Made by a program: the position numbers and the translations under genes
Shown here: piece after piece, positions 8,581 through 64,000 of the stretch
Layout: each line of letters opens with the position of its first letter
Position numbering within the stretch: the first letter of the stretch is position 1
The notes under the pieces: model-generated
The model's input: the letters and a program-made list of their open reading frames with translations, nothing else
What the model was told of the DNA's origin: nothing
Databases searched by the model: none
Assembly: GCA_033675265.1 (NCBI GenBank)
Contig: JAUJYZ010000967.1
Coordinates: 30,001 to 94,000 of the forward strand
DNA: 64,000 nt
Source of the DNA: Actinostola sp. cb2023
Taxonomy: Eukaryota > Cnidaria > Anthozoa > Actiniaria > Actinostolidae
Direction: 5' to 3'

Positions 8581-11500
8581 ATGGAACCGCAAACTAGCGG
8601 AGCATTGAAGAGGAAACTGTTCAAATGGAGACGATATTTTATACTTTTGCTAACGCCACTACTTCTCATGCCCCTGCCTTTAGCTGTTCCAAGTTCGGTG
8701 AGTGTGTATAATGCGGTATAATGTTTGTGTTGCAGCGAGAGAGTATGTTGAGTTATCGCAAATCTATTTGCACATGTACAAAGGAGCTAGTAGGACACAG
8801 TAGAATCAAGCGAAAAATACAGCTGGTTTCTGCTGGAAAACACGGCTCATCGCATATTAGCAACTGCATGCGCTTTATATCATCAATCAGACTGAATATA
8901 ATAGAAGCTTTCATGCGTAGAATTGAAGGTGAAGATAACGAATTATATTAAAAGTGCTATCGGCTCAGAACATTCTCCATTGGAAATTCATGGCCGACCG
9001 ATCTGATTTGCAAAAGCCTATTTTTGTGATTTTGTTCTGGTGACACAGCATATTAATGTATGCATTATTTAGCACTGTGAGTGACTACCCTGGTTCCAGA
9101 GGCTTTGTCAAAATACGATGTTTGTACATACCGACAGTAATTATGTCCGTTCCTTTGCAAGCCAGAGCAACAATTGATTACGATACACATAGGCCGTGTT
9201 TACACTAGAGCGTTTTACCAAGGTACAAATCAGAAAACTAAGGTTAACCGCTCAACAAACAATGACATTTCCAATTTCTACCAAGGTTCGGTAGCTCGTT
9301 TACTGACAGAAGACCACCAATTTACCAAACCTTTCACACCCCTTTTAAAAATAAGGTGGGTGGGAATCTACCCTGCGAGCAGAGGGAATTTTCTGCTAAC
9401 GTAAGAAAGAAGGGAGAAGAAGAAGAAAAGACCTCTGCTAGCAGGGTAGTGGGAATCCCTTTCTTTGGTTCAGCCAAGTTCTAGAACCCCTTGAAGATCC
9501 GCTTCAGCGCCATAGCTTTCTTTTCAAAAACAAGTTATTAAATTATTTCAGTTACACTTTTAAAAAAATTACTAGAATCACGTAGTTTATTAATTATTTA
9601 TTTATACATACATGGGCAGGGAAAACCCCACAGAGCTAGGCTCCATCACGGGGACCCAGTTGAGAGCAGACACTTGAGGGTGGTCACTGCCAGAGGTCAC
9701 TGCCAGAGGTCACTGCCAGAGGTTTGTTTACGTCCTCAGTGGTTCTTTTACGTCCCTCCGATTCAAGTGTAGTGTACTGTGGAGAGACGGGACCGCACGT
9801 GATCATCCGAGCCACGCGAAGGTCAGAGTAACGAAGTGCGACGTCACGAAAACAATAATTTTCTCTTTATCACCTTTCGATCCCCAATTTCGAAAGAACA
9901 TCAATAAAGACGCTTACATGCCAAATTTGAGAGCAATCGGTTAAATAGCGGCTGAGATATGGCCAGTTGAATATATAATTTCCCCACACAAATCACTGTA
10001 TTTTCGGCTTGGATCATAACTTTATGATTTCTCCAGAGAACACCTGTTTACATCACATGGTTTGAAATGGGCAATTTACATCACAGGCAGCCCCACCAGT
10101 AGTAAGAGAGGAAGGTGGGGAGAAAAATCTAAAATCATTTACAAGACAATTGCTTGGGCTGCCTGTGTTTCAATCGCTCTAAAATTACCACCACGGAGCA
10201 CAGGCAGCCCAACCATTGTTTCTGAGGCTATTTATATTTATTAAAAAAAATTATTTGCATGCGCGCGTCTTTTTTTATGGGTTTCCTGTGTACGTCCTGC
10301 GGGACGCGCCCGCAGCAATGTGTATATTCACGATATTCACCTTGTTTCACTATGTACATTGCTGCGGGCGCTTCTTGCGGGACGCGCACAGGGAGCCCAA
10401 CATAATACATTTGTATGCACAGGGAGCCCGACATATACGTATTGCGCGCGCGCTCTACCACAGGAAACCCATCAAAAAAGACGCAAATATCATTTTATTT
10501 GATTATTTAGTAGCCTCAAAAGCAATGGTTGGGCTGCCTATTCACGGAGCTGAGCTCCACCACGGGCTCGGTTCGGACAGCGCGCAAAGGCGCTTGGGTT
10601 CTCCCTTCCCAATAAACATCGCACGCCCACATCGCGAGTAAGAGAAGCAACTGGGTACGAGTCTGTTACGATCTCCTAACGGCCTCTCCTAACTGACTGT
10701 CTATGTGAATATTTGGATAATTACAAGAGACCATGAGTGAGTGTCCCTCATGGTCTCTTGTAATTACTCAAGAGTTTTTCGTGACAGGAATATTATTTTG
10801 TTGACCTTTAAGTTGGCCGAAAGTATATGCTCCAATAAAAACTTGCTTTTCACCACTGTGGTAGTGCTCGAAATTGTTTGACCAACAAATGGATTAGAAC
10901 TAGAATGTTATCCTCTCTATCAATAGAGTACTAAAGTCATGACGTCATAAAAAATAATTTTTGCTTTTATAAATTTTTGATTTCCAGTTCAGATAGAATA
11001 TCATGAAAGAAGTTCACACACCAATTTTTATGACAATCGGTTAAATAGCGGTCAAGATATATATGGCCAGTTGAATATATAATTTGCCTTAACAAATCAC
11101 TGTATTTTCGGCTCCGTTCCTAAAGTTAAGAACGGAGCCGAAAATACAGTGATTTGTTAAGGCAAATTATATATTCAACTGGCCATATCTTGACCGCTAT
11201 TTAACCGATTGTCATAAAAATTGGTGTGTGAACTTCTTTCATGATATTCTATCTGAACTGGAAATCAAAAATTTATAAAAGCAAAATTAATTGTTTCGTG
11301 ACGTCACACTTTAGTACTCTATACCAAGCGTGCCTATCCCCCCGGGCGTTTTATTTTTGGAAAAAAAGCCTTGCAAATGCCCCACATACGGGCTTTGGAA
11401 CGTGTGCAAATGCCCTACCCACGGGATGACTGACTTGTGAAGTAAGAGTGAAAGTAGTCAAATGATGTTTGATGGATGGATGGATGGATGGATGGATGGA

Positions 11501-14500
11501 TGGATGGATGGATGGATGGATGGATGGGATGGATGGATGGATGGATGGATGGATGGATGGATGGATGGATGGATGGATGGATGGATGGATGGATGGATGG
11601 ATGGATGGATGGATGGATGGATGGATGGATGGATGGATGGATGGATGGATGGATGGATGGATGGATGATGGATGGATGGATGGATGGATGGATGGATGGA
11701 TGGATGGATGGATGGATGGATGGATGGATGGATGGATGGATGGATGGATGGATGGATGGATGGATGGATGGATGGATGGATGGATGGATGGATGGATGGA
11801 CGAATGGATGGACGAATGGATGGATGGATGGACGAATGGATGGACGAATGGATGGACGAATGGATGGACGAATGGATGGATGGATGGATGGATGGATGGA
11901 TGGATGGATGGATGGATGGATGGATGGATGGATGGATGGATGGATGGATGGATGGATGGATGGATGGATGGATGGATGGATAGATAGATAGATGAGTGAA
12001 TGGGCGGACTCACAGAGACTGTTTGACTGTGTGATTGATTGAAAAACTGATGGACTGACTGAATGATAAACGCTTTTTGCTTTTTGCAATATTTTTTATC
12101 AAACATTACCCATCTGTTTTTATAAGGAGTCCCGATGTGCCTATTGTATTCTCGTGATGGCGGTATACTGGGTCACAGAAGTCATCCCTCTCGCAGTTAC
12201 AGCCCTCCTACCCATGATACTCTTTCCGCTACTGGGTGTGGTGGGGTCCAAGGAGATTAGTCCCCCTTACTTCCAGGATACTAATGTACTCTTCATGGGG
12301 GGTCTCATCGTTGCTGTGGCGATTGAACACTGGATGCTTCACAAACGTATAGCTCTTCGTGTCCTGTTGCTCGTTGGAACTCAACCACGAAGGTACAGTT
12401 GGTGTGGGAAGTACAGATTAAAGTTATTTATTTTATTTATCAGTTTAAAAATGTGTATATTGGGCCCAATCTTGTGGGGCACGTGTGGCCCCCAGCCCTC
12501 CCCCTCATGCTTAAGTTTCTGTCTGAGAGTAACACTTCGTATTAGAGTTCAGAATGTGCTACCAAAATATGATGACGAGGAAAATATGAGAAAAGTAGGG
12601 TCACTTCGCGATTAATTGACAAAGTCCCCCGCCGATCAAGTCAGTATTGCGTCTTCAGCGCCTCTTCCTCGGTGCTTTTGGATACATATGATGGAGTACG
12701 TCATATGCAAGAATGGGGTTCACATGCAAAGGTGGCTTAGTTGGTTAGTACGCGACCTTCTATAAAGCGAGAAGTGCTCAGTTCGACTCTTCTCCTTGTT
12801 TCGATTTCCCTCTAATCCTTGTAGCTCTAGTGTAGCTTCAGTAAATCTCTAAATACCCGTAGAACGGAGCGCTGATGGAGGGAGGGGTGGAGGGCGTCTG
12901 TCCGTCCCCTGGAATATCATTTTCGGGTGATGATTCACCACCGTTCGTACCTGCGCGTTCTACTAGTACACTAAACAGTGACTCTAATCGTTTGTAGGCT
13001 CATGCTAGGGTTTATGCTAGTAACTGCGCGTTCTATTAGTACACTAAACATTGACTCTAATCGTTTGTAGGCTCATGCTAGTGTTTATGCTAGTAACTGC
13101 GCGTTCTACTATTACACTAAACAGTGACTCTAATCGTTTGTAGGCTCATGCCAGGGTTTATGCTAGTAACTGCGCGTTCTACTATTACACTAAACAGTGA
13201 CTCTAATCGTTTGTAGGCTCATGCCAGGGTTTATGCTAGTAACTGCGCGTTCTATTAGTACACTAAACAGTGACTCTAATCGTTTGTAGGCTCATGCTAG
13301 GGTTTATGCTAGTAACTGCGCGTTCTACTAGTACACTAAACAGTGACTCTAATCGTTTGTAGGCTCATGCTAGTGTTTATGCTAGTAACTGCGCGTTCTA
13401 TTAATACACTAAACAGTGACTCTAATCGTTTGTAGGCTCATGCTAGGGTTTATGCTAGTAACTGCGCGTTCTACTATTACACTAAACAGTGACTCTAATC
13501 GTTTGTAGGCTCATGCTAGGGTTTATGCTAGTAACTGCGCGTTCTACTAGTACACTAAACAGTGACTCTAATCGTTTGTAGGCTCATGCTAGGGTTTATG
13601 CTAGTAACTGCGCGTTCTACTAGTACACTAAACAGTGACTCTAATCGTTCGTAGGCTCATGCTAGGGTTTATGCTAGTAACTGCGCGTTCTACTAGTACA
13701 CTAAACAGTGACTCTAATCGTTTGTAGGCTCATGCTAGGGTTTATGCTAGTAACTGCGCGTTCTATTAGTACACTAAACATTGACTCTAATCGTTTGTAG
13801 GCTCATGCTAGGGTTTATGCTAGTAACTGCGCGTTCTATTAGTACACTAAACAGTGACTCTAATCGTTTGTAGGCTCATGCTAGGGTTTATGCTAGTAAC
13901 TGCGCGTTCTACTAGTACACTAAACAGTGACTCTAATCGTTTGTAGGCTCATGCCAGGGTTTATGCTAGTAACTGCACGTTCTATTAGTACACTAAACAG
14001 TGACTCTAATCGTTTGTAGGCTCATGCTAGTGTTTATGCTAGTAACTGCGCGTTCTACTAGTACACTAAACAGTGACTCTAATCGTTTGTAGGCTCATGC
14101 TAGGGTTTATGCTAGTAACTGCACGTTCTATTAGTACACTAAACAGTGACTCTAATCGTTTGTAGGCTCATGCTAGTGTTTATGCTAGTAACTGCGCGTT
14201 CTACTAGTACACTAAACAGTGACTCTAATCGTTTGTAGGCTCATGCCAGGGTTTATGCTAGTAACTGCGCGTTCTATTAGTACACTAAACAGTGACTCTA
14301 ATCGTTTGTAGGCTCATGCTAGGGTTTATGCTAGTAACTGCTTTCCTGTCAATGTGGATCAGCAATACGGCTACAACTGCCATGATGGTACCCATTGGTG
14401 AAGCTGTACTGTCTGAGCTTAAGGAGGAACAACTCAAGGAAGAACGTAAAAATGCAGAAGAGAGACAAAGTCTAGACGCCCTCGAAAACGTGACTAATTC

Positions 14501-17500
14501 TGCCTATGAGGATAATGATAATAACATTGGCGTGAAAATCGAGATGAGAGAAATACAAGACAACGACGAAGAAGAAGTAGATGCGGCCCAGAATAACGAA
14601 GTTGGCTTCAAGTACAAGAAAGGAGAAAGGTTTGTCAACGATTATTATTTAATGTTTACACAACTTGAAGAGTGTAGTGTGAGCTTGTAGTGTGTAGATA
14701 GATAGATAGATAGTTTATTATTAGTAAATACTGTGTATGTGATGGGTAGAGAACTGCAATATCGCGGGCTTCCTGTGCCACACACAAATCGATCATTCAT
14801 TCGGATTAGTTAGCGCATGTCATTTTACTTTTGTTCGACGCGCTATTAAGATAGTTCGTGTAGGCAGCGTAGTAGGGTTTTTTTTAATTTTTTTTTAATT
14901 TTTTTAGTTATTTCTTCTGAGGCTTTTGTTAAACACAGAAAGACAGTTTAGAGCGCAGGCCGAATTAGGGCTGTCCACAAGTTGCTCGGCAACTTTTGTG
15001 CAACTTTTCCGAATTCGGGCAACTTTTTTTCTTTCGAGCAACTTCTTTCTTTCTTAAACATTTCCACAAATTAAAACAAATTAAACAGGCCTATTAAGTA
15101 CTAAAATTGGTTTATTTCGCTTTAAGGGTCATAATACAGTTTGTAAACAGCATGCAGTGTTCAGGACTGGGTTAGTGAAGGCTTGTGGAGTAGTAGTGGG
15201 CTGCCTGTGGTTATTTGAAAAGGCGATTCAGGTGGTCAGCGGTTACTTTACCAAAATTAAAAATGGCGGACAAAAATGGCAACACGTGCATGAGATGGCT
15301 TGATTTGATAAGCAGCATAGAGTTTTCACTGCTGCTTTTTTAATTTGCTGCAAAGAGAGTTACACTTACACAAGTGATTTTCAGATAAATATTATTAATA
15401 TAGGCATAAGATTGATTGTTATGTAAACTAACATTGGCTGCCACTGAGATGCCATGAAAATGTTGTAAATTCCTGTTACAAGCTATATTTTATGAAAGAA
15501 ATCAGAAAATCGGTTAGAAATATTCCTTTGATTGGGTAATTAGCATCTTATTATAGTAAATACGAAAAGCAACATTGTAGCAACTTTAAGATTTTGGAGC
15601 AACTTTTGAGCAACTTTTAGAGTTTTGGAGCAACTTTTGAGCAACTTTCCTGGAAATTTTGAGCATCTTTTTAAACAATTTGGAGCAACTTGTGGACAGC
15701 CCTAGGCCGAATAATATATTTTGGCTTCCTGTGGTTCTATGCCTGAAATCTTCTACGTTTACGTACGTTCAACCTTAGTAAACGTAACCGTAGTCGATAC
15801 CGCGCGTAATACCACAGGAAGCCCAAATATATTTTCCCGTGTACTCTACCACAGGAAGCCCAAATATATTTTCCCGTGTACTCTACCACAGGAAGCCCAA
15901 ATATATTTTCCCGTGTACTCTACCACAGGAAGACCAAATATATTTTCCCGTGTACTCTATCACAGGAAACCCAAATATATTTTCCCGTGTACTCTACCAC
16001 AGGAAGCCCAAATATATTTTCCCGTGTACTCTACCACAGGAAGACCAAATATATTTTCCCGTGTACTCTATCACAGGAAACCCAAATATATTTTCCCGTG
16101 TACTCTACCACAGGAAGACCAAATATATTTTCCCGTGTACTCTAGCACCGGAAGCCCAAATATATTTTCCCGTGTACTCTAGCACCGGAAGCCCAAATAT
16201 ATTTTCCCGTGTACTCTACCACAGGAAGCCCAAATATATTTTCCCGTGTACTCTACCACAGGAAGCCCAAATATATTTTCCCGTGTACTCTACCACAGGA
16301 AGCCCAAATATATTTTCCCGTGTACTCTACCACAGGAAGCCCATAAAAGAACGCTCGCATAATTTATTTTTCTTTTCAACAATGTCCTGAGAAGAAATAG
16401 CTGGACTTGTGGATAGGCACAGACAGATTCTGCTCGGCAACTTTTGAGCAACTTTTTCGAATTTTGAGCAACTTTTTCAATTCTGAGCAACTTTTGAGAT
16501 TTTCCGAGCAACTTTTACCAAAATGACAATTTTTGATATATTTTGCCATTTCAAATCAAACACCGAACGAAAAATCTTGCTATAAGCACGATTTTCTGTG
16601 GTGTATCATATATGGATGTCTCGTTGGGTGTCCTGTGGTGTATCTTCCATATATGGATGTCTCGTTGCTCGTTGGGTATCCTGTGTTAATATTCCGAACA
16701 GCTTCCGGTATTGCTGAAAGCAAAATGGCGGAAGCCATGCAAGAAAGCGAAGACCCTATTCAAATTGCTAGAGAAAACGGGGCAGAGATGACGGAACCTG
16801 AAAGGGCTTCCATTTCGAAAGAACGTAAAGTTGCTAGAACATCGGACAAGTATATTATTGTATATCGTATGAGTTTGATACTTCAAACTCCCAATTCAAT
16901 TGAAAATATTGTTAAGACATCTCTAGCTCAGCCAGACAGCCAATGGAAATGGATGTATTTTTTGACTCACTATGTTGCTAAGCCAACAAAATGGCGGCCT
17001 AGTGAGTCTCTTTTTAATACAACCATATTGATTCAGTATAATTATGCAATATGGTGTTTAGAATAATTGCTTGATCTTTTGAAGCTGTTGAGTTTAGAAA
17101 CTTGATTCTTTATCATTTTTCAATAAATCAGGCAACAAGAGTGAGAACAATATATTTTTTTTGGAGCAACTTTTTATATAATTCTGGGAGCAACTTTTTC
17201 AAATTTGAGCAACTTTTGAGCAACTTTTGAGGGTTTTTTTGGGGCAACTTTTAAAGAATTTTTGAGCAGAATCTGTCTGTGCCTACTTGTGGAGTAGCGC
17301 GTCTGTATTGACATGATTGTTTGATTTACAGAGCATCAAGTGTTGACTTACTTGATGAAGACATCGAGGTGGGTGGTGTTTTTTGATGGTTGTTTGGTCT
17401 TGGTATTTGCTTCTGGTATTTGTATATATATGCTTTTTTCATTTTTCCTTCGACTTTCTATTTTTCTTCATTTTGTTTTCATTCCAATTCCTTTTTAGTC

Positions 17501-20500
17501 TTGAGTTTTCAATGATAGACACACATATGCATTCGTGCCCACGACCCTTGTCCAGCGCGCACCTCGAATAATATGATTGGATCCCGGCTTTCCGCAAGTC
17601 GACCACGCCCAAACTCAGAGAAATACCATGGTAAAGGCAGAGTTATATGAATGTTTCTTGTATATTTTCAGAGTGAAATTGACAAGCAGTTCAAGAATAT
17701 GAGTAAAATGCTGCTGTTGAGCATAGCTTATGCAGCCAACATTGGGGGAACTGCAACCTTGACTGGAACAGCACCCAACCTCATTCTTAGTGGACAAGTT
17801 TCCAAGTTAGTTTTAACCGTGGTTCATATCGAATTAAGTAGTAGTAAGAAAATGATCCACTGAAACAACAGTTGTATAGTTGTTAGGTTGTTGTTAGGAT
17901 TCATTGACATAATTACAAAAGATTTTGTCTCTGACTTAAATTACAAAATTGACAGACGTTTCGGCTAGTTCTTTAGCCTTCTTCAGTGAAATTCAAAATA
18001 ACGTTAGCTGCGCGAGAGGAATAGTTTGAAAATCATTGTCGTATTTATAATGTCGTTTAGGGGGAGGGGGAAGGGGGGGGAAGGAGGAGGGGAGTGACGA
18101 GAGAGGGGTGGTCATATTATCGGTCAAAATGTCCCACGCTTGTCAAGCATTTTTGCAAGGGATTGTAGCTATATAGCTGGCACCAGCCAACTCCATTTTT
18201 TCGGCCAATCTTTCGTGAAACACACATAGTTGACACGTTGTTGTGACGTGTTGTTGTGATATATTATTGTGACGTGTTGTTGTGACGTGTTGTTGTGACG
18301 TATTATTGTGACGTGTTGTTGTCGGACGTGTTGTTGTGACGTGTGGTTGTGACGTGTTGCTGTGATGTGTTATTGTGACATATTATTGTGACGTGTTGTT
18401 GTGACGTGTTGTTGTGATGTGTTGTTGTGATGTGTTGTGACGTGTGGTTGTGACTTGTTGTTGTGACGTGTGGTTGTGACTTGTTGCTGTGACGTGTTAT
18501 TGTGATGTGTTGTTGTGACATTATTGTGACGTATTATTGTGACATGTTGTTGTGACGTGTTGTTGTGGTGTTGTTTTACAGGTTGTTTCCCAAGAGTCCT
18601 GGGATAGGTTTTGCCACGTGGTTCATGTATGCATTGTGGTGTTGTTTTACAGGTTGTTTCCCGAGAGTCCTGGGATAGGTTTTGCCACGTGGTTCATGTA
18701 TGCATTGTGGTGTTGTTTTACAGGTTGTTTCCCGAGAGTCCTGGGATAGGTTTTGCCACGTGGTTCATGTATGCTTTCCCAGAGATGCTCATCTTGTTGT
18801 TTGTAGCCTGGGTTTGGTTGCAGATGCTCTTCTTGGGACTAAGGTGAGCATGTTGTTGGGGGTAACTATGTCTGACTGTATATAACAACAACAACAACAA
18901 CAACAACAACAATTATTAATTATTAATTATTGTTAAAACAACTGGTTTTTTTTGTTTTTTGTTTTTTAATTAATTTTATTCTGTATTTCACAAAGATGCA
19001 TAATTACATTTTCATACTTTATGTTCTGATGATATACAACATTATAGATTCACTCTATATTCACACTATATTAGCAACTGTTTATTTGTATATGCTTATG
19101 AATTGTCCATAAATTCACTGCCAATAAATTAACGGACAGAGACTCAGTAACGGGTTAAAAAGACGACTTGCATGTTGAACCCTATCTATCTAAGAGAAGC
19201 AAATAATTGTACGAGATAGTGGGAGTTAATTTGAGATTATCAAGTAAATGTTTCAGGAAAATAGAATCATTTGTTTTCAGTTCGAGAAAACGGGGTTCCA
19301 CTGTATTTCACTGAGGGGCAATACTTGATATGTGTTTATTTCGTTGTGCTTTAGATGTTGTTGTAAGAAAGGCGGTGAGCAAAACCGTGATCAAGCGAAT
19401 GCTGCCAAGAAAGTGCTACAGCAACAATACAGTGCACTTGGTCCAATGAGGTACGCGACACTTCATTTTCTATATAGTTTGGTATACCTGTGGTAAATAA
19501 AAGAGAGGGACTGGGAACGAATAGGAGAAAAGTGAATAGCCCAAGTCTCCCTCTGCCTAAAAACATAAAGGGCTCCCAAAAGAAGATTTAAAAGTGCGTA
19601 GGAGGCTAGTTCATACCCACCATTGAATGGCCAGTATCATCCCTTATACACTAGAGTCGTTTTGGTACGAGTGATAAACCTACGGTACCGTGACACTCAA
19701 ATAATAATAATAATAATAATACTACTTAATCTTTAAGGAGGAAGCGCCCATCACATAACGTGGTTTTCAGGGAGATCCTCAAATAATATACAATAGAAAT
19801 GAAAATAAAATAATTATAAAATACAATGTAAAAATGGATTAATATAAAACAATAAAACAATCATATATATAAAATACTCGATCTAAAAGTTCTGAGACTA
19901 AAAGTATTTACAAATCTATATCTCTACTCAGAGATCAAATGGTTGGTAGGCTGCCATCACCGCCTGGACGCAGACAACCATTTCAATCAGCGTCAGTGTT
20001 CAGAGACTTCAGACAAGGTGGACGATATGGTGAAAATATTTCCCCTGGGGGTAGTGCACTGGATTTGTCTGAGTTTCCAGCGTTAGCTAATAGAATGCTA
20101 GACAGCAGTGGAAGTGGTTCAGCACCAAGTAGACCGTCGTGGCTTCCTTTCTGAACCAATCAAATAGCGCATCTCATCCAATCAAACTCTTTCAATACGA
20201 CAAGGCGCGGCACCGTAACTTTCCCATTCATACGAAAACGACTCTAAAATATATATAAAATATACGACTGGACCAATCTTACAATAATTTGAAAAACATT
20301 ATAAAATATAATTATTTAATTATCCCACAAAATCTAGTTTTGCAGAAAAAGGCGTTTTGGTTCACTTCATATTACTTGCACTGCTGTGGTTGTTTCGTGA
20401 CCCCAAGTTCATGCCAGGATGGGCCATCATCTTTAAGAAAGAGTAAGAAACATATCTTATAAGTTGCTGTTAGGTTGTTGTTAGGTTGTTAGGGTGTTGT

Positions 20501-22847
20501 TAGGTTGTTGTTAGGTTGTTGTAGGGTGTTGTTAGGTTTGTTAGGTTGTTGTTAGGGTGTTGTAGGGTATTGTTAGGTTGCTGTTAGGTTGTAGGTTGCT
20601 GTTAGGTTGTTGTTAGGTTGTTAGGGTGTTGTTAGGTTGTTGTTAGGTTGTTGTAGGGTGTTGTTAGGTTTGTTAGGTTGTTGTTAGGGTGTTGTAGGGT
20701 ATTGTTAGGTTGCTGTTAGGTTGTAGGTTGTTGTTAGGTTGTTGTTAGGGTGTTGTTAGGTTGTTGTTATGTTGTTGTTAGGTTGTTGTTAGGGTGTTGT
20801 TAGGGTGTTGTTAGGTTGTTGTTAGGGTGTTGTTAGGTTGTTAGGGTGTTGTTAGGTTGTTGTTAGGGTGTTGGCTTGATTGCGTGAATTGCGAGCGAAA
20901 ACAGGAAAGTCATTGAGTAATAATGTATTAAATAATGTAAGTAAGATTATGGTGACGAATCATGTTTAGACTAGGGTCATGTTATATTCTACTAACCGTG
21001 TCCATCTATTTTAGCTATGTACGTGATGGAACTGTTGCTATGATTATTGCATTCTCGCTTTTCATTTGTCCTTCTGAAAAACCGAAGATCCTGTGTTGGA
21101 ATCCAGAAGGAGCTGGTAAGAAAAGCAGACATAATTCCCCTTAAACCCCCCCCCCCCCCCCTTTCTCCCTCTACCCTCCCCCCCCCCCCCCCCCCACAAG
21201 TCTACGCTACAAGACCGGGAGCGTGGGTAATGTTATTAAGAGTTACGTAGAACCTTGTGTTGTGATGGTGACTTATGATGATTCTCCTTACACTACTAAT
21301 TACAGTATGTGTTTGCAAAACACTCAAACAGCTCGGTTTCACATTAACGTTATTATTAACAGTTATTATGCTATGGTCACACAAACTTTCATTACATATT
21401 GTGTTGCCAATAGTAACCAAACCACCAGTGGCGCTGCTGACTTGGAACATTACAGCACGCAAGTTGCCTTGGAATATCATCATTTTGCTTGGAAGTGGTT
21501 TCGCATTGGCTAAAGCTTGCAAGGTTTGAAATCTCAATATAATATCACGATTCCATAGTCATTTACTTACCTACGTGTAGGGTTGGAAGTGATCAGAAAC
21601 AGTGAATGAGTAAATGAGAGAAAAAAACGAGAACAAACAGAAGACAGTGGGACTTCCCATGGCCTTAATCTACTCCGCAATCTTGGAGTTCCTGTGTTGC
21701 AGGGCTCGGTGCGCGTTCTTTGACACAAGGAATACATTGAAGAAAACAAAGTTGCTTGTCAAAGTTGATTCGTTTAATCATAGTCATCTTTTACTTTTAT
21801 ACATGATATGTCGTTGTGTTAGTCTTTTCTAATAATGGGTATCTTGCTTTTTCCAGGTCTCTGGTCTGTCTGTCTGGCTTGGACTTCAATTGGTTGGTCT
21901 CAAAGCCATTCCAAGTTGGGCGATTGTAACCGTGGTTTGTGTTTTGATTACGACTTTTACTGAAGTCACTTCAAACACTGCGACAGCTACTATCTTTCTG
22001 CCTATACTTGCTGCACTGGTAAGCAGAGAATTGTTGTGGTAAAGGGTTTGTAGCAGTCACGATCATTGTCTATCATAATAATCATCGTCGTGATCATCAC
22101 TATCATCATTATCATCACCATGACCATGACCATCATCGTTACCATCATCACAATCATCATTGCTATCATCACCATCATCATTGCTATCATCACCATCATC
22201 ATTGCTATCATCACCATCATCATTGCTATCATCACCATCATCATTGCCATCATCGTCATCATTACCATCATCGTCATTAAGCCTGGGTTTTTTTTTACTA
22301 GTGAGTGAAGCGGGTTTTTTTTACTCTGAAACGTCGCATGACACAATTATGAATGCTGTAGTTAACTGACGTGCTGTTCTCATATCAGGCTGAAAGTATA
22401 CAAGTCAATCCATGGTACCTTATGATTCCTGCTACTGTGTCCTGCTCATTTGCTTTCATGCTTCCAGTAGCTACTCCCCCTAATGCGATAGTATTCGCTA
22501 GTGGGAAGCTCAAAGTATCAGACATGGTAAGAATGTAATGGTTATGAAACCCGGTAAATTGACAAAATAGTCAATTGTATTAACTATGTTTGCGTCTTCC
22601 TCCTTTCTCCTGCCCTTCTTCCTCCCATCTTCCCTTCCTGTCTTCCTTCTTTAATGAGCTCCTTTTCTTCCCACAGGCCAAAGCTGGATTCGGCATGAAC
22701 TTGATCTGCTGTGTAATCTTAATCTTGTGTATTAATACTTACGGTTCAGCCATGTTTGATTTGCAAGAATACCCGTCATGGGCAGCACAGTTAGCAAAGA
22801 ACTCCACCATTAAGGTTGTCTGCAATAATGTCACAGTCTACCATTGA
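8581..22847 (+). CDS. SLC13-family sodium/dicarboxylate (citrate) cotransporter, copy A, complete
   Basis: Predicted plasma-membrane Na+-coupled di/tricarboxylate transporter of the SLC13 (DASS/NaDC/INDY) family. Exons: 8581-8697, 12127-12392, 14312-14629, 17332-17368, 17672-17805, 18724-18843, 19355-19450, 20338-20442, 21015-21115, 21414-21523, 21857-22018, 22389-22526, 22677-22847 (TGA). They sum to 1875 nt, 624 residues, in phase throughout with GT/AG borders. Motifs: first SNT (145-147, in [13 protein letters not shown]), [12 protein letters not shown] (271-282), second SNT (507-509, in [13 protein letters not shown]), and [17 protein letters not shown] (541-557), which fits the family signature. 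An acidic loop follows the first SNT. N-glycosylation sequons (NST, NVT) lie at the C-terminus, as in vertebrate NaDCs. Start: first Met, before basic [10 protein letters not shown] and TM1. Exons 3 and 6 begin in tandem acceptor arrays. Substrate not determinable from sequence. Confidence 0.93.
9369..9449. mobile_element. short hairpin element, CTACCCTGCGAGCAGAGG ends
   Basis: CTACCCTGCGAGCAGAGG at the left matches the complement of CCTCTGCTAGCAGGGTAG at the right, in intron 1 of copy A. A related hairpin with GCAGAGG ends is at 46031-46083 in copy B intron 1. Confidence 0.6.
10082..10540. mobile_element. CACAGGCAGCCC-family element(s) in copy A intron 1
   Basis: CACAGGCAGCCC-type ends lie at about 10082 and 10200, with the complementary GGGCTGCC at 10531. 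Inside are inverted GGGTTTCCTGTG / CACAGGAAACCCATC, GCGGGACGCGCCCGCAGC and an alternating CG stretch. The same modules recur at 36204-36430, 38685-38870 and 40500-41130. Confidence 0.65.
10924..11322. mobile_element. large hairpin MITE, about 190-bp arms, TAGAGTACTAAAG ends
   Basis: TAGAGTACTAAAGT at the left is mirrored by CTTTAGTACTCTA at the right. The arms stay complementary to a centre at about 11121-11125. The motif GGTTAAATAGCGG...TATGGCCAGTTGAATATATAA also occurs, unpaired, at about 9940-9980. Confidence 0.8.
11470..11983. repeat. GGAT tetranucleotide microsatellite (about 510 bp) in copy A intron 1
   Basis: Nearly pure (ATGG)n with single phase breaks at about 11527 and 11666 and a GACGAATG-interrupted block at about 11798-11873. 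No equivalent lies in copy B intron 1. Because the unit has no stop on either strand, long DGWM or HPSI frames are spurious. Confidence 0.97.
12726..12802 (+). repeat. tRNA-like / SINE fragment in copy A intron 2
   Basis: GGTGGCTTAGTTGGTTAG resembles a tRNA D-arm/A box, and CAGTTCGACTCTT about 45 bases on resembles a degraded B box. The paralogous site in copy B (50684-50752) keeps both, so it predates the duplication. It does not fold into a convincing functional tRNA. Confidence 0.35.
12957..14341 (+). repeat. 73-bp tandem array of a 3' splice site plus start of exon 3 (19 acceptors, copy A)
   Basis: Each unit carries ACTCTAATCGTTTGTAG, an intact-looking 3' splice site with a branch-like CTAAT, then 30 nt equal or nearly equal to the start of exon 3, then about 43 nt ending in the next acceptor. 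ACTCTAATCG falls at 12981 and the final, genuine one at 14295: 1314 bp, exactly 18 periods with no indel. Units differ at a few positions (GCTAGGG/GCTAGTG/GCCAGGG; TACTAG/TATTAG/TACTATT). Only the last unit runs into the remainder of exon 3. Confidence 0.95.
14966..15704. mobile_element. hAT-like non-autonomous transposon with 8-bp TSD in copy A intron 3
   Basis: Terminal inverted repeats TAGGGCTGTCCACAAGTTGC, flanked by the 8-bp duplication GGCCGAAT (14958-14965 and 15705-15712). Copy B has the empty site GGCCGAATAA at about 56810. Subterminal GCAACTTTT / AAAGTTGC repeats are typical of hAT ends. No transposase frame. A second full copy is at 41306-42041. Confidence 0.9.
15811..16343. repeat. 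37-bp tandem repeat containing CACAGGAAGCCCAAATATAT, 14 units plus partial
   Basis: ACCACAGGAAGCCC recurs every 37 bp from 15811 to 16329, exactly 14 periods, with variants such as GGAAGACC and AGCACCGG. Copy B has one unit plus a partial at about 57272-57322, so the array expanded in copy A. Open frames here are repeat artefacts. Confidence 0.95.
16414..17285. mobile_element. second hAT-like element with 8-bp TSD in copy A intron 3
   Basis: Terminal inverted repeats TAGGCACAGACAGATTCTGC, target duplication CTTGTGGA (16406-16413 and 17286-17293), and an intact empty site in copy B (CTTGTGGAGTAGCG at about 57388). Subterminal GAGCAACTTTT repeats link it to the 14966 element. It contains an open frame at 16533-17066 (177 residues), including a charged [17 protein letters not shown] segment, which I cannot assign. 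Confidence 0.88.
18236..18570. repeat. GTGACGTGTTGTT minisatellite in copy A intron 5
   Basis: Roughly 12-bp units GTTGTGACGTGT with variants run directly into the exon-6 acceptor array. The paralogous array in copy B (59390-59850) is longer. Confidence 0.92.
18572..18774 (+). repeat. 71-bp tandem array of a 3' splice site plus start of exon 6 (3 acceptors, copy A)
   Basis: TTGTTTTACAG acceptors end at 18581, 18652 and 18723, exactly 71 bp apart. Each is followed by the first 51 nt of exon 6 (encoding [17 protein letters not shown]); the first has CAAGAG where the others have CGAGAG. Only the third continues into FPEMLILLF and the rest of the exon. Reading on from an earlier acceptor meets TAG in the next unit. 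Confidence 0.95.
19698..20139 (+). pseudogene. copy A-specific insertion carrying a CNOT2-like exon fragment
   Basis: Copy B reads CACTCAAATGGCTTCC continuously, whereas copy A has about 440 bp between CACTCAAA and TGGCTTCC. The insert starts with a TAA-triplet run. After an acceptor-like CTCTACTCAG it is open to the reading ending in [20 protein letters not shown] (19939-20154). [12 protein letters not shown] resembles the conserved LDLSDFPALADR segment of CCR4-NOT subunit CNOT2 as I remember it. No other CNOT2 sequence is visible, so a captured or transposed exon fragment is inferred. Confidence 0.5.
20459..20875. repeat. GTTGTTAGG minisatellite in copy A intron 8
   Basis: Irregular 9-12 bp units (GTTGTTAGG, GTGTTGTTAGG) begin just after the exon-8 donor. 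An internal block of about 130 bp is itself duplicated (GTAGGGTATTGTTAGGTTGC occurs twice). The copy B counterpart is about 2 kb. Confidence 0.95.
21146..21197. repeat. poly-C tracts downstream of exon 9, copy A
   Basis: Two C runs separated by TTTCTCCCTCTACCC, about 30 bases after the exon-9 donor. The copy B equivalent at 63541-63573 is one longer run. Confidence 0.9.
22064..22280. repeat. ATC/CATCATCAC trinucleotide-type repeat in copy A intron 11
   Basis: Irregular ATC-rich repeat including five tandem CATCATTGC(T/C)ATCATCAC-type units. It lies wholly between the exon 11 donor and exon 12 acceptor. Confidence 0.9.
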
Positions 22848-22856
22848 CCGTCAGTT

Positions 22857-23925
22857 TTGGATCTTCCATACAGGATCTTCCATGCAGGATCTTCCATGCA
22901 GGATCTTCCATACAGGATCTTCCATGCAGGATCTTCCATGTAAAAATGATCTTCCATGCAGGATCTTCCATGCAGGATCTTCCATGCAGGATCTTCCATG
23001 CAGGATCTTCCATGCAGGATCTTCCATGCAGGATCTTCCATGCAGGATCTTCCATGCAGGATCTTCCATGCAGGATCTTCCATGCAGGATCTTCCATGCA
23101 GGATCTTCCATGCAGGATCTTCCATGCAGGATCTTCCATGCAGGATCTTCCATACAGGATCTTCCATGCACGATCTTCCATGCACGATCTTCCATGCAGG
23201 ATCTTCCATACAGGATCTTCCATGCAGGATCTTCCATGCAGGATCTTCCATGCAGGATCTTCCATGCAGGATCTTCCATGCAGGATCTTCCATGCAGGAT
23301 CTTCCATGCAGGATCTTCCATGCAGGATCTTCCATGCAGGAACTTCCATGCAGGATCTTCCATGCAGGATCTTCCATGCAGGATCTTCCATGCACGATCT
23401 TCCATGCACGATCTTCCATGCAGGATCTTCCATGCAGGATCTTCCATGCAGGATCTTCCATGCAGGATCTTCCATGCAGGATCTTCCATGTAGGATCTTC
23501 CATGCAGGATCTTCCATGCAGGATCTTCCATGCAGGATCTTCCATGCAGGATCTTCCATGCAGGATCTTCCATGCAGGATCTTCCATGCAGGATCTTCCA
23601 TGCAGGATCTTCCATGCAGGATCTTCCATGCAGGATCTTCCATGCAGGATCTTCCATGCAGGATCTTCCATGCAGGATCTTCCATGCAGGATCTTCCATG
23701 CAGGATCTTCCATGCAGGATCTTCCATGCAGGATCTTCCATGCAGGATCTTGCATGCAGGATCTTCCATGCACGATCTTCCATGCACGATCTTCCATGCA
23801 GGATCTTCCATGCAGGATCTTCCATGCAGGATCTTCCATGTAAATAGGATCTTCCATGCAGGATCTTCCATGCAGGATCTTCCATGCAGGATCTTCCATA
23901 TAGGATCTTCCATGCAGGATTTTTC
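22857..23925. repeat. 14-bp minisatellite (CAGGATCTTCCATG), about 76 units, immediately after the copy A stop codon
   Basis: The array starts about 10 bases after TGA and so would lie in the 3' UTR. Most units are identical; variants include CACGATC, TACAGGATC and short AAAATGATC or AAATAGGATC interruptions. The unit has no stop codon in any frame of either strand, so all six frames are open for hundreds of codons. I treat these as non-coding. Confidence 0.95.
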
Positions 23926-40476: not shown

Positions 40477-41305
40477 GATACGCCATCAGTTTCACACCTT
40501 GTTTCAATATACACATTGCTGCGGGCGCGTCCCGCAGGGCGTACACAGGGATCCCAACATTATACATTTCTATGAACAGGGAACCCAATATAATACCGGC
40601 GTATCGCGCGCGCGCTCTACCACAGGAAACCCATCAAAAAAGACGCAAATATATTTTTATTAGCCTCAAAAGCAATGGTTGGGCTGCCTGTGATTTGCTG
40701 CGGGCGCATCCCGCAGGAAGCACACAGGAAGCCCAACATAGGACATTACTCAGCACAGGGAACCCAACATATGTATTGCGCGCGCGCTTTACCACAGGAA
40801 ACCCATCAAAAAAAGACGCAAATATCGTTTTTTCAATTATTTAGTAGCCTCAAAAGCAGTGGTTGGGCTGCCTGTGCATCTACTTGCGCCGCACATCGGG
40901 CCATCACGTGACTGGAGTTTCATACCTTGTGTAAATATACACATTTGCTGCGGGCGCATCCCGCAGGACACACACAGGAAGCCCAACATAGGACATTACT
41001 CAACACAGGGAACCCAACATATGTATTGCGCGCGCGCGCTTTACCACAGGGAACCCATCAAAAAAAGACGCAAATATCATTTTTTGAATTATTTAGTAGC
41101 CTCAAAAGCAATGATTGGGCTGCCTGTGGTAGTAGTAGTAAATATAACCCCGTAGGAAGCCGACTGTTCGCGTATCCTGCTGTAAAACCACTGCTTTTAA
41201 TAAAGACTTCAGATACTGCGCTTCTTTCACTGTTATATCTTCCGTTTACCAAGTGCTTTTAAAGCGTATTCTATTCCCTGATGAAACCTTTCGATGGATT
41301 CCACT

Positions 41306-42041
41306 TAGGGCTGTCCACAAGTTGCTCGGCAACTTTTGCGCAACTTTTCCGATTTCGGGCAACTTTTTTTCTTTCGAGCAACTTTTTTTCTTTCGAGCAA
41401 CTTCTTTCTTTCTTAAACATTTCCACAAATTATAACAAATTAAACAGGCCAATTAAGTACTAAACTTGGTTTATTTCGCTTTACGGGTCATAATACAGTT
41501 TGTAAACAGCATGCAGTGTTCAGGACTGGGTTAGTGGGCTGCCTGTGGTTATTTGAAAAGGCGATTCAGGTGGTCAGCGGTTACTTTACCAAAATTAAAA
41601 AATGGTGGACAAGCGAAATGCAAAAAAAGAAGCCTTGATTTGATAACTGAGCAGCATAGAGCTTTCAGCTGCTTTTTTAATTAGCTGCAAAGAGAGAGCC
41701 TTTACACTTACACAAGTGATTTTCAGATAAATATTATTAATATAGCCGTAAGATTGATCATGTAAACTAACATTGGCTGCACTGATGCCAAGAAAATGTT
41801 GTAAATTCCTGATAACAAGCTAATACTATATGAAAAAATCAGAAAAACGGTTAGAAATATTCCTTTGATTGGGTAACTAGCATCTTATTATAGTAAATAC
41901 GAAAAGCAACATTGTAGCAACTTTAAGATTTTGGAGCAACTTTTGAGCAACTTTTAGAGTTTTGGAGCAACTTTTGAGCAACTTTCCGAGATATTTTGAG
42001 CATCTTTTCTAACAATTTGGAGCAACTTGTGGACAGCCCTA
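41306..42041. mobile_element. hAT-like element, second copy of 14966-15704
   Basis: Same TAGGGCTGTCCACAAGTTGC terminal repeats, with an 8-bp target duplication ATTCCACT (41298-41305, 42042-42049) different from that of the first copy, showing independent insertion. Confidence 0.9.
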
Positions 42042-43093: not shown

Positions 43094-45374
43094 CGTTGCT
43101 GTAGTTCATGTAGTTGCTGTAGTTGCTGTAGTTGCTGTAGTTGCTGTAGTTGCTGTAGTTGCTGTAGTTGCTGTAGTTGCTGTAGTTGCTGTAGTATGTA
43201 GTTGCTGTAGTGCATGTAGTTGCTGTAGTTGCTGTAGTGCTGTAGTTGCTGTAGTTGCTGTAGTTGCTGTGTAGTTGCTGTAGTGCATGTAGTTGCTGTA
43301 GTTCATGTAGTTGCTGTAGTTCATGTAGTTTGTTGTAGTTCATGTTGTTGTAGTCATGTAGTTGTTGTAATGTAGTTGCTGTAGTTCATGTAGTTGTTGT
43401 AGTTCATGTAGTTGCTGTAGTTCATAGTTGCTGTAGTTCATGTAGTTGTTGTAGTGCATGTAGTTGCTGTAGTTCATGTAGCTGTTGTAGTTCATGTAGC
43501 TGTTGTAGTTCATGTAGTTGCTGTAGTTCATGTAGCTGTTATAGTTCATGTAGTTGCTGTAGTTGCTGTAGTTCATGTAGTTGCTGTAGTTCATGTAGTT
43601 GCTGTAGTTCATGTAGTTGCTGTAGTTCATGTAGTTGCTGTAGTTCATGTAGTTGTTGTTCATGTAGTTCATGTAGTTGTTGTAGTTCATGTAGTTGCTG
43701 TAGTTCATGTAGTTGCTGTAGTTCATGTAGTTGTTGTAGTTCATGTAGTTGCTGTAGTTCATGTAGTTGCTGTAGTTCATGTAGTTGCTGTAGTTCATGT
43801 AGTTGTTGTAGTTCATGTAGTTGTTGTAGTTCATGTAGTTTGCTGTAGTGCATGTAGTTGCTGTAGTTCATGTAGCTGTTGTAGTTCATGTAGTTGTTGT
43901 AGTTCATGTAGTTGCTGTAGTTCATGTAGTTGTTGTGTAGTTCATGTAGCTGTTGTAGTTCATGTAGTTGTTGTAGTTCATGTAGTTGCTGTAGTTCATG
44001 TAGTTGCTGTAGTTCATGTAGTTGTTGTAGTTCATGTAGTTGTTGTAGTTCATGTAGTTGTTTAGTCATGTAGTTGTTGTAGTTCATGTAGTTGTTGTAG
44101 TTCATGTAGTTGCTGTAGTTCATGTAGTTGCTGTAGTTCATGTAGTTGCTGTAGTTCATGTAGTTGTTGTAGTTCATGTAGTTGCTGTAGTTCATGTAGT
44201 TGTTGTAGTTCATGTAGTTGTTGTAGTTCATGTAGTTGTTGTAGTTCATGTAGTTGCTGTAGTTCATGTAGTTGTAGTTCATGTAGTTGCTGTAGTTCAT
44301 GTAGTTGTTTGTAGTTCATGTAGTTGTTGTAGTTCATGTAGTTGCTGTAGTTCATGTAGTTGTTGTAGTTCATGTAGTTCATGTAGTTCATGTAGTTGTT
44401 GTAGTTCATGTAGTTGTTGTAGTTCATGTAGTTGTTGTAGTTCATGTAGTTGTTGTAGTTTGTTGTAGTTCATGTAGTTTGTATAGTTCATGTAGTTGTT
44501 GTAGTTCATGTAGTTGTTGTAGTTCATGTAGTTGCTGTAGTTCATGTAGTTGTTGTAGTTCATGTAGTTGCTGTAGTTCATGTAGTTGTTGTAGTTCATG
44601 TAGTTGTTGTAGTGCATGTAGTTGCTGTAGTTCATGTAGTTGTTGTAGTTCATGTAGTTGTTGTAGTTCATGTAGTTGCTGTAGTTCATGTAGTTGCTGT
44701 AGTTCATGTAGTTGTTGTAGTTCATGTAGTTGTTGTAGTTCATGTAGTTGTTGTAGTGCATGTAGTTGCTGTAGTTCATGTAGTTGTTGTAGTTCATGTA
44801 GTTGTTGTAGTTCGAATTCATGTAGTTGCTGTAGTTCATGTAGTTGCTGTAGTTCATAGTTGTTGTAGTTCATGTAGTTGCTGTAGTTCATGTAGTTGTT
44901 GTATAGTTCATGTAGTTGTTGTAGTTCATTTCGTTGCTGTAGTTCATGTAGCTGTTGTAGTTCATGTAGTTGCTGTAGTTCATGTAGTTGTTGTATAGTT
45001 CATGTAGTTGTTGTAGTTCATGTAGTTGCTGTAGTTCATGTAGTTGTTGTAGTTCATGTAGTTGTTGTATAGTTCATGTAGTTGTTGTAGCTCACGTAGT
45101 TGCTGTAGTTCATAGTTGTTGTAGTTCATGTAGTTGCTGTAGTTCATAGTTGTTGTAGTTCATGTAGTTGCTGTAGTTCATGTAGTTGTTGTATAGTTCA
45201 TGTAGTTGTTGTAGTTCATGTAGTTGCTGTAGTTCATGTAGTTGTTGTAGTTCATGTAGTTGTTGTATAGTTCATGTAGTTGTTGTAGTTCACGTAGTTG
45301 CTGTAGTTCATAGTTGTTGTAGTTCATGTAGTTGCTGTAGTTCATGTAGTTGTTGTAGTTCATGTAGTTGCTGT
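43094..45374. repeat. 2.3-kb minisatellite GTAGTTCATGTAGTTGCT / GTAGTTGTT
   Basis: It begins as 9-bp GTAGTTGCT units and becomes an 18-bp higher unit GTAGTT(C/G)(A/T)TGTAGTTG(C/T)T, with many single-base and phase variants. It ends at ACACCAACATGGCGGCC, about 480 bp before the copy B start codon. All long frames within it are artefacts. Confidence 0.97.

Positions 45375-45862: not shown

Positions 45863-64000
<18,138 letters not shown>

Follow-up and report, generated by a model that had tools for sequence, protein, structure and literature searches.

How can an exon keep its place when its own 3' splice site stands repeated many times in the intron ahead of it, and how would such an arrangement arise? 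The question is raised by a duplicated pair of genes (copies A and B) of the vent sea anemone Actinostola sp. cb2023, both of them SLC13 transporters, which lie together in the 64-kb stretch of DNA analysed here and referred to throughout as the window.

The gene pair and its host genome

Copies A and B match the public models QZH41_019209 (P0003) and QZH41_019211 (P0001), respectively, in exact pieces along most of each gene; model pieces that the two copies have in common, or that in B fall past the end of the window, were assigned to copy A, and residues 1-114 of the 606 in P0003 have no exact piece in the window. Pfam recognizes Na_sulph_symp and CitMHS in copy A. Exons 1-9 have an open frame in both copies, and exons 10-13 of copy A are placed only roughly. 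The genome paper (PMC10803348) gives the host as a vent sea anemone sequenced with PacBio and Illumina reads deposited as SRR25988563-SRR25988567, assembled with a pipeline of LoRDEC, DBG2OLC, Racon and Pilon, and annotated by homology and de novo gene prediction; it states a heterozygosity of 0.9%. The exons referred to below are as follows:

12127..12392, + strand, exon 2 of copy A
14312..14629, + strand, exon 3 of copy A
18724..18843, + strand, exon 6 of copy A
50054..50319, + strand, exon 2 of copy B
55713..56030, + strand, exon 3 of copy B
60222..60341, + strand, exon 6 of copy B

An array of acceptors ahead of exon 3

The end of intron 2 of copy A and the head of exon 3 recur together as a tandem array:

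12955..14341, + strand, array A73: a 73-bp unit present 19 times, as 18 decoys and the true unit at 14269-14341

A first-pass annotation had described this as a perfect 19-fold array of the exon's own 3' splice site, with a period of exactly 73 bp over 18 intervals and its last unit at the real exon start, and most of that description stands. Tandem Repeats Finder reports 12947-14341 with a period of 73, 19.1 copies, 96% matches and 0% indels; there are 19 acceptors, every one of the 18 intervals between them is exactly 73 bp in this one assembly, and the last unit holds the exon 3 start at 14312. Each unit consists of 43 nt of the intron 2 end and 30 nt of the exon 3 head, with the branch-like CTCTAAT and the TAG/G acceptor present in 19 of 19 units, which agrees with the composition originally proposed (a branch-like motif, the acceptor and the first 30 nt of exon 3). 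The first in-register unit occupies 12955-13027 and is preceded by an 8-bp partial unit from 12947, and the start of the array, earlier placed at 12957, is corrected to 12955, or to 12947 when the partial unit is counted. The word 'perfect' holds for the spacing and fails for the sequence, as 7 of the 73 sites (1, 9, 12, 24, 39, 52 and 55) are variable and the 19 units fall into 11 types, with the consensus matched exactly by four units and the others 1-3 bases off.

The same design in copy B and at exon 6

The annotation had also treated the array as a feature of exon 3 of copy A, which is correct for that site and incomplete for the pair: the same unit recurs at exon 3 of copy B, and exon 6 of each copy has a second array, made of 71-bp units:

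50952..55742, + strand, array B73: 65 acceptors, same 73-bp unit as A73, first unit disrupted
18563..18774, + strand, array A71: 3 units of 71 bp, with acceptors to 18582, 18653 and, the true one, 18724
59845..60272, + strand, array B71: 6 units of 71 bp, comprising 5 decoys and the true one

In B73, 50 of the 64 intervals are exactly 73 bp and 14 take other values in the one assembly, and the TAGG acceptor is kept in 62 of the 65 units. The 71-bp unit, which joins 20 nt of the intron 5 end to 51 nt of the exon 6 head, is unrelated in sequence to the 73-bp unit, and in all four arrays the last unit is the exon start. When 41 splice boundaries (24 in A, 17 in B) were probed with 40-nt sequences, extra copies were found nearby at four, namely the exon 3 and exon 6 acceptors of both copies, and at none of the donors probed in the two copies, those of exons 3 and 6 included; some boundaries of exons 10-13 of A are approximate by a few bases, and the 40-nt probes still span the sites.

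A 13-bp array (GTTGTTGTGACGT) directly abuts the 71-bp acceptor array in both copies, at 18237-18575 and 59389-59857, and its final variant is resembled by the intronic portion of the 71-bp unit.

Decoys and the choice of the true acceptor

Read straight on from the acceptor, a test whose scope ends where further splicing within the array would begin (for instance at the GTAACT that sits 22 nt into most 73-bp units), all 89 decoys meet a stop within 97 nt (18/18 in A73, 64/64 in B73, 2/2 in A71 and 5/5 in B71), the usual stop behind the 73-bp decoys being the TAG of the next acceptor. Neither 73 nor 71 is a multiple of 3, and the units thus shift the frame. Unspliced reading from the true acceptors stays open for 379, 454, 124 and 124 nt, beyond the ends of the exons.

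Some of these decoys are letter-identical to the true unit, namely 2 of 18 in A73 and 4 of 64 in B73 across all 73 nt and 1 of 2 in A71 across all 71 nt; in B71 it is 0 of 5, with three decoys a single base off. A and B have the same true 73-bp unit, letter for letter, and copy A contains a decoy that departs from the true site at 1 base across 146 nt of upstream and exon-head context. Such decoys amount to a natural test of splice-site choice, in which only the surroundings can separate the competitors. As seven decoys are identical to the true unit, what decides the choice of acceptor must lie beyond the unit, in the simplest case downstream of it, and general knowledge of splicing makes it most likely that the true acceptor is chosen by exon definition, through the exon body and its downstream donor. 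RNA structure was considered as a discriminator and rejected: two inner units gain nothing in folding over shuffled sequences (z 0.35), of which 121 in 200 equal or surpass them.

A peptide derived from decoys (residues 262-312 of P0001) was searched for in other species, and the matches listed, from 65 candidates scored, were only the two Actinostola models; gene models rarely include decoys, so this says little.

Origin of the arrays

Fifteen residues around the head of exon 3 are identical in Nematostella, and the exon is therefore older than the array. Together with the finding that no 14-mer of the consensus 73-bp unit occurs within the window outside the exon 3 arrays of A and B, this identity supports the view that the exon came first, not a satellite. 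At its left edge A73 reads GTACCTGC and at the unit end GTAACTGC, with 7 of 8 bases matching, which would fit slippage or microhomology 73 bp apart, and a partial unit would look alike. Copy B reads GTACCCGC at the same edge, after which its first unit is broken by unrelated sequence, and no clear edge match was seen at the 71-bp array.

A 73-bp segment placed at random in the copy A gene would span an acceptor about 3% of the time; among the distinct arrays with units of at least 30 bp inside that gene, 2 of 5 do so. This is a hint, post hoc and drawn from one gene, that acceptors may be hit more often than by chance, which plain slippage does not predict.

Turnover and comparison of the two copies

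All seven variable sites of A73 vary in B73 also, with the same alleles. The mean number of differences per unit pair is 2.09 within A, 2.33 within B (54 of the 65 B73 units, the 11 with indels having been dropped) and 2.34 between them, a net A-B difference of 0.13 of 73 bases; this net value exceeds most label shuffles (p 0.0255), and the arrays are therefore not wholly mixed. An exact counterpart in the other array exists for 13 of the 19 A units and 15 of the 54 B units. Concerted evolution that leaves out the edge unit is among the traits of the lancelet 'mirages' discussed below; here the units share variants, and the true unit is not set apart from its array, equalling two decoys in A and four in B. 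Unit numbers differ between the paralogs (19 and 65 for the 73-bp unit, 3 and 6 for the 71-bp unit), and the order of unit types gives no sign of collinear arrays, the longest run common to A and B being 2, a length of at least which is reached in 449 of 500 shuffles.

Outside the arrays, aligned introns of A and B differ at 111 of 1632 bases (6.8%), and exons 1-9 at 35 of 1294, fewer than the introns, as would be expected of constrained genes. That private unit changes are few despite this paralog difference may point to recent turnover, to units exchanged between the two loci or to variation flattened during assembly; neutral decay alone would predict more. The idea that two haplotypes had been assembled in a row was ruled out by the 6.8% intron difference, to be set against the stated heterozygosity of 0.9%.

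Gene models and other repeats in the window

Both public protein models of the pair (window 50054-63921 and 8581-22847) are mis-threaded at the arrays. Residues 275-315 of QZH41_019211 are drawn from 59867-59989, that is, from 71-bp decoy units read partly in another frame, and nothing in Nematostella corresponds to the extra residues. QZH41_019209 omits exon 2 and the head of exon 3, and enters exon 3 from other sequence at a point in its middle (14361).

Several further repeats lie in and around the two genes. A 14-bp unit (GGATCTTCCATGCA), repeated about 75 times, occupies 22859-23920, starting 12 bases past the apparent stop codon of copy A and thus probably in the 3' untranslated region. 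In both copies exon 8 is followed by an array of an 11-bp unit (TGTTGTTAGGG-like), at 20463-20873 in A (about 0.4 kb) and at 61322-63295 in B (about 2.0 kb). Intron 3 of copy A holds 14 copies of a 37-bp unit with CACAGGAAGCCC at 15810-16343, and single occurrences of this motif are found at other places in the window, such as near 57260. A dispersed GAGCAACTTTT-rich stretch occurs at 14965-15704 and 41305-42041 (87% identity between the two places), a minisatellite of seven 61-bp units at 1216-1648, and a 2.3-kb array of 9/18-bp units at 43095-45374, ahead of exon 1 of copy B.

Weighing the explanations

Taken together, the arrays are probably neutral minisatellites of the kind described from lancelet genes as 'mirages', produced by tandem duplication across an intron-exon junction and removed with the intron, the true acceptor being recognized by what surrounds the unit. 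Tandem duplication would have copied a stretch running from an intron's end into the head of the exon that follows, at exon 3 probably through slippage or microhomology involving the intronic GTACCTGC and the exonic GTAACTGC, and the array would then have expanded by unequal exchange. The copy adjoining the exon body would keep its role, and the others would become intronic decoy acceptors that leave with the intron; transcripts using a decoy would meet a stop at once and be destroyed by RNA decay. On this account the arrays would need no function.

A function has nevertheless some observations in its favour. Decoys that compete for the splicing machinery could, through the length of the array, determine what fraction of transcripts runs into a stop and decays, and so tune the dose of each SLC13 copy, and one could cite for this the stops behind every decoy of the four arrays, the acceptor and branch-like motif kept in nearly all units (TAGG in 19/19 in A and 62/65 in B) and the retention of both arrays in both paralogs. 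Random out-of-frame sequence gives stops too, however, repeat turnover also preserves motifs, and splicing is reported to proceed undisturbed in lancelet genes with mirages (PMC3087553, PMC3902484), and we regard a regulatory role of this kind as improbable. The chance that the assembly created the arrays, multiplying or reshuffling a few real units through errors in the long reads, their correction and the polishing with short reads, seems to us slimmer still; the build reported in PMC10803348 (PacBio with LoRDEC, DBG2OLC, Racon and Pilon), the nearly identical unit variants in A and B and the 14 irregular intervals in B would all suit it, but two unrelated units of the same design in two paralogs, units carrying different variants and 18 exact intervals in A argue against it, even if the exact unit numbers may nonetheless be wrong.

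Hardest of all to credit is the capture at the exon of a pre-existing satellite, from whose insertion the likeness to the exon would stem. The window is indeed rich in tandem repeats (63 rows in Tandem Repeats Finder), yet the exon head codes for the residues identical in Nematostella, the unit leaves no 14-mer elsewhere in the window, and the unit repeated at exon 6 is unrelated to it. Beyond the neutral mirage-type reading that we prefer, a broader proposal would make acceptor arrays a recurrent feature of anthozoan and lancelet genomes, formed by a process with a preference for 3' splice sites, with paralogous arrays still exchanging units (a net 0.13 of 73 bases as against 6.8% in introns) and, in its boldest form, with decoys acting as a length-variable switch to decay that sets gene dose; we offer it as a speculation that is unlikely to hold.

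Comparison with known systems

Intron gain by tandem duplication, the Rogers model as cited in PMC3087553, shares with the present case a tandem duplication that includes splice signals. It differs in its outcome, for no new intron is seen here, the exon is unsplit and the frame of exons 1-9 is as expected. Tandem duplicated, mutually exclusive exons likewise place several acceptors ahead of one exon sequence. In that respect they resemble these arrays, whose units, by contrast, include no more of the exon than its first 30 or 51 nt, lack its donor and shift the frame. A dispersed satellite or introner element would place one unit at unrelated loci, and in the window the 73-bp unit was found at no locus besides the arrays of A and B.

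The closest counterparts are the lancelet mirages, and the first-pass statement that no such minisatellite had been described was mistaken, as these are published (PMC3087553, PMC3902484). They are described for the globin genes BflGb6 and BflGb9 in PMC3087553, for Adh3 by Canestro 2002, as known through citing papers, and for TnC and PGBD5, added by PMC3902484. In both systems, as far as these reports describe the lancelet cases, a splice boundary is repeated in minisatellite-like tandem fashion, the exon carrying the authentic copy and the intron the rest, and the likeness extends to the boundary itself, the end of the intron and the head of exon 2 being repeated in BflGb6 and the intron end and exon head here. 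The unit length given for mirages is 10-160 bp (PMC3087553), and those of Actinostola measure 73 and 71 bp; the last copy is the only one from which an open frame runs on into the exon. Judged on this anatomy, the Actinostola arrays fall within the structural definition of mirages. They differ in belonging to another phylum, in reaching 19 and 65 acceptors as against the 6 and 3 units reported for two BflGb6 haplotypes, and in affecting two acceptors of one gene in both paralogs; for the lancelet mirages splicing and length instability have been reported, whereas the arrays in Actinostola are known here from the sequence of one assembly.

A search of the open-licence literature, judged by title and the start of the abstract, found no cnidarian mirage, and as far as such searches show, what is new is the host, a cnidarian, together with the high copy numbers and the presence of two such acceptors in one gene. 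Carried from lancelets to Cnidaria, mirages would seem to be either old or easily made.
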